Part shown: positions 9,421 to 15,555 of the stretch, piece by piece
Layout of the letters: every line of letters starts with the position of its first letter
How positions within the stretch are numbered: position 1 is the stretch's first letter
Position numbers and translations under genes: made by a program
Notes under the pieces: model-generated
The model's input: only the letters and a program-made list of their open reading frames with translations
The model's database searches: none
Told to the model about the DNA's origin: nothing
Source of the DNA: Erythrobacter sp. SCSIO 43205
GTDB lineage: Bacteria; Pseudomonadota; Alphaproteobacteria; Sphingomonadales; Sphingomonadaceae
DNA: 64,000 nucleotides
Direction of reading: 5' to 3'
Assembly (NCBI RefSeq): GCF_019904235.1
Contig: NZ_CP063202.1
Location: forward strand, 434,001-498,000

Positions 9421-10959
9421 ATGAGCTTGCATCCGATCGCCCATGCGGCGACGCGCCCGGACCACCCCGCCGTCATCATGGCTGGCAGCGGTGCGCAAAT
9501 GACCTTCAAGGAAATGGACGAGGCCTCCAATCGCTTTGCGCATCTGTTGCGCGCGCGCGGATTTGGCGAGGCTGATGCTTTCGGGGTCCTTCTTGAAAAC
9601 CGCATGGAGTATTTCACTCTCATCTGGGGCTCGCAGCGCTGCGGGGCGATGCTGGTGCCTATCTCAACACGCCTGACCGCGCCTGAAATCTCCTATATTC
9701 TGCGCGATTCGCAGGCGAAGTTGCTGATCACGTCGCCAGCCTATGCCGATGTGGTCGAGGGTATACGCGCCGAGCTTCCCGAGCTTGAAATCCTCGTGAC
9801 GCGAAGCGGGGGCGCGGACGATTTCGAGGCGGCCTTGAGTGAGCATTCGCCAGAAGCGGTCGCTGATCCGACACCGGGCCGCGTGATGCTCTATTCTTCG
9901 GGCACCACGGGGCGGCCCAAAGGCGTGCGCCCGCCGCCACCTGCTGATCCCGATGTGCAAGCGCCTGTCCCACTGATGGGGCTGGCGACGATGGGGGCTG
10001 GGATGCCGGCCGATGGTTCGATGGTCTATCTGTGTCCCGCCCCGCTTTATCACGCAGCGCCTATCGGATGGGCCTCGACCGTCCAGCGCCTTGGCGGGAC
10101 GGTTGTGGTGATGGAGAAGTTCGATCCCGAAGATGCTCTGGCCGCGATTGAGAAATACAAGATCACCGACAGCCAGTGGGTGCCCACCCATTTCGTGCGC
10201 TTCCTGAAACTCGATGAGGAGGCGCGGGGTCGCTACGATCTCTCCAGCCACCAGCGCGCGCTTCATGCAGCAGCTCCCTGCCCTGTTCCCATCAAGCACG
10301 AGATGATCGAATGGTGGGGACCGATCATCAACGAATATTACGCAGGGTCTGAAGGCATCGGCATGACGCTGGTGAAGTCGGAAGAATGGCTCCAGCATCC
10401 CGGCACCGTGGGCGTTCCGATCTATGGCAAGCTCCACATTTGCGGCCCAGATGGCGAGGAAGTGCCAGCGGGCACAGACGGGCTCATCTATTTCGAGAAC
10501 GACATCTTGCCGACCTATCACAACGATCCTGAGAAAACGAAGGAATCGATGCACCCCAAAGGCTGGATGACGCTTGGCGACATTGGCCATGTGAACGAGG
10601 CAGGCTACCTCTTTCTTACCGATCGCAAGAGCCACATGATCATCTCTGGCGGGGTCAATATCTATCCGCAGGAGATCGAGAACCTCCTCGTCACGCACGA
10701 CAAGATCATGGATGCAGCCGTCATCGGCGCGCCGTGCCCTGAGCTTGGCGAGAAGGTAGTCGCAGTGGTCCAGCCCATGGATATGGCCGATGCGGGCGAA
10801 GCGTTTGAGGCGGAGCTGCGAGACTTCCTTGCGCCTAACTTGGCCCGCATAAAGATGCCGAAGCAATTCGACTTTCGCCCCGATCTGCCCCGCGAGGCCA
10901 ATGGCAAGCTCTACAAGCGCGAGCTGCGCGATGAGTACGCCGCCAAGGCGCAAGGGTAA
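9421..10959 (+). CDS. Acyl-CoA synthetase, AMP-forming (FadD-like)
   Basis: It activates a carboxylic acid to its CoA thioester through an acyl-adenylate. This 512-residue ANL-superfamily enzyme has the P-loop motif YSSGTTGRPKGV at 158-169, the aromatic-rich NEYYAGSEG region, the adenosine-binding GWMTLGDIG, the hinge TDRKSHMIISGGVNIYP and the catalytic lysine in ANGKLYKREL (Lys496). The start ATG has a GAGGGAGAG Shine-Dalgarno. A cytochrome P450 begins three bases after the stop, so the pair is translationally linked and probably degrades one substrate, such as a fatty, terpenoid or steroid side-chain acid. The exact acid cannot be read from the sequence. Confidence 0.92.
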   Translation: MSLHPIAHAATRPDHPAVIMAGSGAQMTFKEMDEASNRFAHLLRARGFGEADAFGVLLENRMEYFTLIWGSQRCGAMLVPISTRLTAPEISYILRDSQAKLLITSPAYADVVEGIRAELPELEILVTRSGGADDFEAALSEHSPEAVADPTPGRVMLYSSGTTGRPKGVRPPPPADPDVQAPVPLMGLATMGAGMPADGSMVYLCPAPLYHAAPIGWASTVQRLGGTVVVMEKFDPEDALAAIEKYKITDSQWVPTHFVRFLKLDEEARGRYDLSSHQRALHAAAPCPVPIKHEMIEWWGPIINEYYAGSEGIGMTLVKSEEWLQHPGTVGVPIYGKLHICGPDGEEVPAGTDGLIYFENDILPTYHNDPEKTKESMHPKGWMTLGDIGHVNEAGYLFLTDRKSHMIISGGVNIYPQEIENLLVTHDKIMDAAVIGAPCPELGEKVVAVVQPMDMADAGEAFEAELRDFLAPNLARIKMPKQFDFRPDLPREANGKLYKRELRDEYAAKAQG

Positions 10960-15107: not shown

Positions 15108-15118
15108 GCCACAACCGT

Positions 15119-15142
15119 CACCCCGGCCCACGAGCCGGGGTG
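15119..15142. repeat. Palindromic intergenic repeat, caccccggc type
   Basis: A nine-pair inverted repeat (caccccggc, loop ccacga, gccggggtg) directly after the flotillin gene. No T tract follows, so it is not a classical terminator. It resembles the short GC-rich palindromes that are scattered between genes in many alphaproteobacteria, and its gtcacccc edge is shared with the element at 45275-45357. Confidence 0.55.
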
Positions 15143-15261
15143 GGGGTCACTTGACTGTCGTTACTTGAATATTCGTGTATAGAACACTCGTATTATTCAT
15201 CTTTTTGGCAGCTTTTCTATTTTCGCAGTGGGCAGGAAAGTCCCAGAAACGTACAGAAAGT

Positions 15262-15432
15262 ATGAATAACGAAAACATTATCGAACTTAACATCGATGAA
15301 ATTGAAAATGTTGCAGGCGGCCCTCTTCCCGTGGCCGCGTACTATGCGATCATCGCTGCCAGTGGCTTCGTAACTGGTGGAGCCGTTGGCTACGGGATGC
15401 TGATGATCGCTGAAAACATGGCACATCCTTAA
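15262..15432 (+). CDS. Double-glycine-leader peptide, bacteriocin-like precursor
   Basis: A 56-residue peptide starting MNNENIIELNIDEIENVAGG. This 20-residue leader fits the class II bacteriocin/microcin consensus: Leu at -12, Glu at -8, Ile at -7, Val at -4 and Gly-Gly at -2/-1. The predicted 36-residue core (from PLPVAAYYAII) is hydrophobic, without cysteine, and has GxxxG-type spacing in GFVTGGAVGYGM, as in helix-forming pore bacteriocins. No lantibiotic-type modifying enzyme or C39 peptidase transporter is in the window. The frame is open upstream to a GTG at 15175, which would add a hydrophobic 29-residue segment; the leader match favours the ATG at 15262. The Shine-Dalgarno is weak. Confidence 0.6.
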   Translation: MNNENIIELNIDEIENVAGGPLPVAAYYAIIAASGFVTGGAVGYGMLMIAENMAHP

Positions 15433-15459
15433 GGGATAAACCGGAGACAAGGGCTGATC

Positions 15460-15555
15460 ATGTCCACAAATCCAGAATTGAAAATCTTCGCCCTATTTTT
15501 CACTTTGGGGCTCTTTTCTGTCATAGCCGCTTACGGTTTGGCGAACAGCTTCTAG
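15460..15555 (+). CDS. 31-aa single-helix membrane protein next to the GG-leader peptide
   Basis: A tiny frame, ATG to TAG, encoding MSTNPELKIFALFFTLGLFS followed by VIAAYGLANSF. It is a short polar N-terminus plus one hydrophobic helix. A GGAG ribosome site lies 14 bases upstream. It begins 27 bases after the GG-leader gene, in the same direction, and both are more AT-rich than their neighbours. By position it could be an immunity peptide, a second bacteriocin component without leader, or an unrelated small membrane protein. Its stop overlaps the galU stop on the other strand by four bases (ctag). Confidence 0.45.
   Translation: MSTNPELKIFALFFTLGLFSVIAAYGLANSF

Follow-up and report, generated by a model that had tools for sequence, protein, structure and literature searches.

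Most of what is known about class II bacteriocins comes from Gram-positive and enteric bacteria. Those of the enterobacteria, the class II microcins, are small toxins of Gram-negative cells that carry a double-glycine (GG) leader, have a C39 exporter and come with an immunity protein, itself small and located in the membrane. Here we describe a locus of Erythrobacter sp. SCSIO 43205 that shares the GG leader, the C39 exporter and the Gram-negative host with these microcins and holds a candidate for the partner role, presumably smaller than the microcin immunity proteins; no microcin model matched its peptide. The window, meaning the whole stretch of 64,000 nucleotides that was analysed, is C1:434001-498000 of a 3.38-Mb single-contig genome (G000).

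Cdz (CdzABCDI) of Caulobacter crescentus is a contact-dependent glycine-zipper bacteriocin, and a single toxin is the prediction for the majority of Cdz-like systems (PMC5380434). Cdz and the present locus have in common a leader ending in G[G/A/S], a zipper with hydrophobic residues at the x positions, an alphaproteobacterial host, a type I exporter made of an ABC protein and an adaptor, and a small membrane immunity partner, for which the window holds a candidate (PMC5380434). In contrast, CdzC and CdzD have 86 and 84 residues with extended zippers and are encoded beside their exporter, whereas the window peptide has 56 residues and one zipper and lies 1.02 Mb from an exporter, and CdzI has three predicted helices against one in the 31-residue candidate partner (PMC5380434). 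When the peptide was compared with the limits for Cdz-like systems, the leader ending in G[G/A/S] was present as VAGG at residues 17-20, and the one to two zippers uninterrupted by proline or charge as a single GFVTGGAVG; the 56 residues fall below the range of 60-151 for the toxin, and the sole C39 match of the genome lies 1.02 Mb off rather than within about 10 kb (PMC5380434). Since length and exporter neighbourhood depart from these limits, we did not assign the peptide to the Cdz-like class.

The lactobin A/cerein 7B family (TIGR03949, class IIb bacteriocin) is alike in its leader and GxxxG core, and a paralogue in the same genome passes the model with 28.5 against a curated cut-off of 21.5 bits. 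The window peptide, in contrast, scores 16.2 bits, has no second GG peptide beside it and belongs to a Gram-negative host. It also stays below the gathering cut-off of PF10439 (16.3 against 27.1 bits, residues 4-43), so neither family was assigned. With the CTB family bacteriocins (NF038167) it shares a leader similarity of 19.4 bits, below the cut-off of 32 and confined to residues 1-26, and every bacteriocin model that matched the peptide scores under its cut-off.

Our preferred reading, to which we give a probability of about 0.55, is that the island represents a class II bacteriocin cassette of satellite type, served by a shared remote exporter, and that its 31-residue protein protects the producer. 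The exporter encoded 1.02 Mb away, a C39-peptidase ABC protein with an HlyD adaptor, would recognise the 56-residue precursor by its GG leader. Cleavage after GG would remove the 20 leader residues, and the 36-residue glycine-zipper core would be delivered outside, where it would form oligomers as a helix inserted in the membrane of related cells. The leaderless one-helix protein would remain in the producer's inner membrane and neutralise the core, most likely by helix-helix contact. The leader and the exporter genes are read from the sequence itself; export, cleavage and toxicity of the peptide, and immunity from its partner, we infer by analogy with Cdz. Systems that pair a GG-leader bacteriocin with a small immunity protein are known; the variant described here consists of a 0.4-kb satellite whose exporter is remote and, as seen in relatives, a partner that appears to copy the core without the leader. 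If a shared exporter serves scattered satellites in Sphingomonadales, weapons could be changed without moving a transporter, and satellite cassettes would escape mining based on exporter neighbourhood.

An AT-rich insertion between flotillin and galU

The first-pass annotation had described an island AT-richer than its surroundings and squeezed between flotillin and galU, and both points hold. The G+C content is 45% in 15151-15555 against 58% in the window, and the flanking genes encode a flotillin (PF15975, Band 7) and a nucleotidyl transferase (PF00483), which is called galU by name only. galU was matched in 111 of 114 genus genomes, and the loci of the 30 best-scoring matches were read, the window's own included. 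Flotillin adjoins galU in 29 of these 30 loci, the other being L109, with none in its 3,260 bases. The spacer between the two genes measures 444 bp in the window genome; among 28 relatives it is 48-133 bp in 22, often with a hairpin resembling a terminator by eye, and 472-1188 bp with other ORFs in 6. No GG peptide lies between flotillin and galU in any of the 28 relatives compared. The nearest relative by galU within the best 30 of 111 loci, G024 (96%), has a spacer of 48 bp with a similar hairpin. Among the 30 loci read, the island is an insertion seen in the window genome only. A search for insertion traces found short repeats but no clear target duplication. No promoter-like site was found before the cassette on the plus strand in a promoter and terminator scan, and no upstream motif common to the cassette and the exporter cluster was evident, the best ungapped 18-mers sharing 12-13 bases in a comparison without a shuffle control. 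The features are collected in Table 1.

Table 1. Features of the island and of proline-rich GG peptides elsewhere. Positions are those of the window unless a locus is named.
Feature	Position	Strand	Remarks
GC-rich inverted repeat 3' of flotillin	15114..15147		Likeness to the repeat in the 48-bp spacer of G024 judged by eye
AT-rich insertion, about 404-405 bp	15148..15551		Edges approximate; from flotillin hairpin to galU end
Hydrophobic stop-free in-frame extension upstream of the GG peptide	15175..15261	+	A GTG start would give 85 aa
GG-leader peptide, 56 aa	15262..15432	+	ORF reading; leader 15262-15321, core 15322-15429
Glycine zipper GFVTGGAVG (GxxxGxxxG)	15364..15390	+	Single, within the core
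Ribosome-binding-like purine stretch 5' of the 31-aa ORF	15443..15453	+	By eye
Leaderless one-helix membrane ORF, 31 aa, candidate immunity partner	15460..15555	+	ORF, hydropathy, recurrent architecture
Proline-rich GG peptide	L033 7655-7858
Proline-rich GG peptide	L158 9835-10038
Proline-rich GG peptide	L077 9506-9318	minus

The coordinates reported for the 56-residue peptide proved exact and its double-glycine leader complete. The leader, MNNENIIELNIDEIENVAGG, comprises the first 20 residues, with L-12, E-8, I-7, V-4 and GG at -2/-1, and is followed by a 36-residue core, PLPVAAYYAIIAASGFVTGGAVGYGMLMIAENMAHP. In the 64 kb on both strands, a strict leader pattern with an ATG start matched once, at this peptide, against 0.007 expected, and a loose pattern likewise matched once against 0.23 expected, where the expectations were derived from 150 Markov resamplings in 2-kb blocks. 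The features of a GG peptide, namely hydrophobic residues at -12, -7 and -4 and the GG itself, are accompanied by a C39 exporter in the genome. The GxxxG-type spacing claimed for the core is borne out by one GxxxGxxxG zipper, and the segment AENMAHP of the peptide contains one acidic residue. Both patterns pick out one GG peptide in the window, and a pair of cooperating GG peptides of the TIGR03949 type was not found there. The core has no Cys, which makes lanthionine rings impossible; no lanthipeptide modifying enzyme is encoded in the interval between flotillin and galU.

The one-helix ORF of 31 residues was likewise found where it had been reported, after a gap of 27 bases. Its top Kyte-Doolittle mean is 2.24 over a 17-residue stretch, and its stop codon shares two bases with that of galU. 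It was not accepted as a CydH/YnhF small membrane protein, the score against NF033411 being 13.4 bits (E 0.055) with a cut-off of 30.

The open frame directly upstream of the peptide, 15175-15261, encodes a hydrophobic stretch, MYRTLVLFIFLAAFLFSQWAG..., which weakly resembles the 31-residue ORF (shuffle p 0.023). This extension is probably not translated, and its origin could lie in an earlier copy of the membrane partner that became joined to the peptide's frame, or in chance. The same open frame and its weak likeness, together with several sister loci that carry two GG peptides and a small ORF where the window carries one GG peptide, would fit a cassette that is a non-working, decaying remnant, half of a former two-peptide module. 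We consider this quite improbable, given that the leader, the zipper and both frames are intact and that a single toxin is predicted for most Cdz-like systems (PMC5380434). Two minus-strand ORFs overlap the island, at 15147-15293 (48 aa, ATG) and 15217-15450 (77 aa, TTG), and both are probably spurious.

A remote exporter and the GG peptides of the genome and its relatives

The first-pass annotation had seen no dedicated exporter in the window and had predicted a remote C39 transporter. A genome search agreed on both counts, with one C39 peptidase match at C1:1468497-1468883 (E 2.5e-30), outside the window, 1.02 Mb from the island and beside a paralogue of the window peptide. The match belongs to a 702-residue C39-ABC protein encoded 2 bases downstream of an HlyD-type adaptor, and the cluster (L033) further contains six GG-peptide candidates, of which one starts with a codon other than ATG, together with a CHASE2 sensor kinase and a LuxR-type response regulator. 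Cys24 and His97 of the C39 domain, which we take to be the catalytic positions of the family, are invariant in 7/7 aligned exporters. The paralogue, at C1:1466316-1466498, is the best relative of the window peptide in its own genome (51% identity over residues 4-41, E 2.7e-5), and no small hydrophobic ORF adjoins it (L033 8317).

Considering that a sensor kinase and a response regulator adjoin the GG peptides in the exporter cluster, the exported peptide might serve as a pheromone signal and not as a toxin, with that kinase perhaps sensing it. We judge this very improbable. The core is a hydrophobic glycine-zipper stretch, one exporter is common to six candidate cores of different kinds, as in bacteriocin arsenals, and CHASE2 is, to our knowledge, not a known peptide receptor.

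Two further GG-type genes lie in the genome at C1:176522-176647 (E 2.2e-4) and, as a weak match, at C1:1821184-1821252 (E 0.28). On the minus strand of L302 (G000:C1:169000-184000), a GG-type peptide is followed by a 109-residue hydrophobic protein with no family match at cut-off, and this partner is more Cdz-like in kind. L084 (G000:C1:1813000-1829000) contains at 8244-8074, minus strand, a 56-residue GG-type peptide with a weak match, whose leader SNIIELNMGDIDVVCGG is near that of the window peptide and whose core is hydrophilic.

The expected conservation in relatives was borne out for the leader pattern, which recurs in the paralogue and in GG peptides of G024 and G023, but not for the peptides themselves, as no orthologue of either window ORF was found in the genomes searched. 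At E up to 1, the searches gave matches in 25 of 61 relatives and 157 of 397 family genomes, mostly in long frames or at chance level, and only the stronger of these matches were fetched. A search of genome contigs with the window peptide gave 325 stretches matching a pattern, with no relative among them. A C39 match was obtained in 39 of 114 genus genomes, several in short frames without a transporter, and a GG-peptide profile matched 11 of 114 at E up to 0.1. Four of these matches (G025, G483, G488 and G502) were set aside as chance, lying in frames of 222-665 residues, and that of G484, a 177-residue frame, was not read. The remaining 7 profile-matched genomes are all among the 39 with a C39 match; since most GG matches lie near an exporter, this co-occurrence does not count as independent evidence. 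In G000, G024 and G478 a GG locus was read that lies apart from the exporter, and all three genomes have an exporter, that of G478 lying on a different contig of a draft from the GG locus. A plasmid search with one GG peptide of L214 gave no match, and a small-membrane-protein profile, which matched 41 of 396 genomes at E up to 0.05, mostly at helices in long frames, was left unused.

Other kinds of GG peptide were met in the course of these comparisons. Those of L080-L083 are of another, hydrophilic type, and the exporters, present in three of the four loci, show only about 30% identity. Proline-rich GG cores (PMPLPYPIPGPLPLPLPIP...) recur in the exporter clusters of three genomes (Table 1). 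L035 (G041) encodes two GG peptides with a VECNCQCG motif common to their tails, and its C39 exporter is 47% identical to that of the window genome. In L156 (G478), at 7093-6719 on the minus strand, consecutive GG peptides end in the matched histidine tails SEFFHHHV and SEFLHHHT, with no small membrane partner found beside them.

Small hydrophobic ORFs beside GG peptides

Under a fixed rule (ATG start, 25-66 residues, start within 150 bp), a small hydrophobic ORF follows 21 of 53 GG peptides with hydrophobic cores, 0 of 65 with other cores and 17 of 1135 long ORFs from the same loci, where the core threshold of 1.3 admits the window peptide (core 1.58). Fisher's test for the association gave 1e-20 and 3e-9. 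The 21 of 53 include the window and L157, whose partner is itself a GG peptide, and removing both leaves 19 of 52. The loci were gathered by similarity searches, are not wholly independent of one another, and had been cleared of seven duplicates or near-duplicates. These counts supersede a looser set (21/36, 5/46 and 60/1072) that admitted GTG and TTG starts, ORFs of up to 130 residues and GG fragments, and in which a core threshold of 1.6 excluded the window (1.58). No small hydrophobic ORF stands beside the other 32 of 53 hydrophobic-core peptides, including the paralogue of the window peptide. Two sorts of partner can be told apart by eye, namely one-helix proteins of 31-60 residues and proteins of about 56-65 residues with two hydrophobic stretches, the latter including those beside the strongly Cdz-like zipper peptides of L077 and L158. 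In the satellite locus of the nearest relative, a 34-residue ORF lies beside the GG peptide.

Based on this recurrent arrangement, the 31-residue protein is probably the immunity partner of the 56-residue peptide, and it is the architecture of other loci, not homology of its own, that backs this role. No convincing relative of the ORF was found in 61 genomes, the best other match being a 324-residue frame at E 0.41. This lack of relatives is what would be expected if the ORF had arisen by chance in T-rich DNA and the GG peptide were the sole gene, and a small hydrophobic ATG ORF within 150 nt appears in 3.5% of random sequences of island composition and after 1.5% (17/1135) of ordinary genes. 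However, the place and size of the ORF match those at other hydrophobic GG loci (21/53), the 34-residue ORF of the nearest relative among them, and a ribosome-binding-like stretch precedes it by eye. A chance origin is, in our assessment, improbable.

A different role for the small protein is suggested by at least six loci (L034, L036, L172, L173, L214 and L299) where two or three GG peptides and the small ORF follow one another and where the ORF, in most of the six, resembles these peptides. The role could be structural or regulatory, such as that of an additional helix that joins the core in an assembly at the membrane of the producer or assists in export. The 31-residue protein, however, has no GG leader, so the C39 route should not carry it. 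Moreover, the two-helix ORFs after the Cdz-like peptides of L077 and L158 rank low in likeness to their own cores (0.44 and 0.33, with a pooled p of 0.07 each), as separate immunity proteins would, with the caveat that the ORF of L158 exceeds segments from the same locus in likeness to the core (p 0.0005). We regard a structural or regulatory role as unlikely and keep the immunity partner as the preferred role.

Likeness between small partners and peptide cores

In L172 (Sphingomonas sp. IBVSS2), a 44-residue ORF between two GG peptides ends in SGYIVGQDLAQAESDRM, and the second GG peptide ends in NGYTIGKDIAQNERR. This tail motif, GYxxGKDLA-like, recurs in L173 and L214 (Lysobacter dokdonensis), and the tails are interchangeable among the three loci: the GG core of L173 scores 69 with the ORF of L172 against 49 with its own. 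In L299, where the start is GTG, GISLGRTLFQ stands beside GVSVGRAIFQ (GxSxGRxxFQ), and L074 has the common tail VKLS...K...V.LGG..G.

To compare partners and cores under fixed rules, 25 downstream small hydrophobic ORFs picked by such rules were ranked against the GG cores of their own and 38 other loci. The own locus fell in the top tenth for 10 of the 25 against 2.5 expected (binomial p 8e-5); all of these 10 except L194 and L209 (5073) were checked further, and one of the 25 ORFs, that of L157, is itself a GG peptide. The 31-residue ORF of the window ranked its own core 4th of 39 GG loci (0.103). Earlier permutation tests had used hand-picked loci, L074 having been chosen partly for its visible likeness. 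The likeness was then set against 2000 natural hydrophobic segments from 173 open frames of at least 250 residues, taken from all six frames of 12 loci, own loci partly included. The p values were 0.0005 for L172, L173, L214 and L299, 0.0025 for L074, 0.0035 for L189, 0.02 for L036, 0.04 for L071, 0.10 for L034 and 0.27 for the window pair, and those of three two-helix partners were 0.07, 0.07 and 0.31. Segments from the same locus gave a similar order, with the exceptions of L034 (0.0006) and the two-helix partner of L158 (0.0005); for L071 no such segment could be drawn. It is therefore well supported by sequence comparison that the partner resembles a peptide core without the leader in at least six other loci.

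Between the two window ORFs, the likeness was not significant against pooled segments (p 0.27), segments of its own window (0.22) or shuffles (0.14), so a leaderless decoy is not claimed for this pair. In these cassettes as a group, it is possible, though rather unlikely, that the one-helix partner is a core paralogue minus the GG leader, which would form mixed, dead helix assemblies and block the toxin. Having lost the leader, such a partner would stay in the inner membrane of the producer. The 31-residue protein of the window would then be a diverged member, a membership that its own sequence does not show. No description of decoy immunity, or of such peptides in Erythrobacter or Sphingomonas, was found among open-licence PubMed Central papers searched by title and abstract start. 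Should the one-helix partners prove to be core copies that lack a leader, they would offer a simple and testable route for the co-evolution of immunity and toxin.

The pair that is most Cdz-like among those read lies in L158, the exporter cluster of the nearest relative, where an 88-residue peptide with an extended glycine zipper (10251-10517) is followed by a 60-residue ORF with two hydrophobic stretches (10585-10767).
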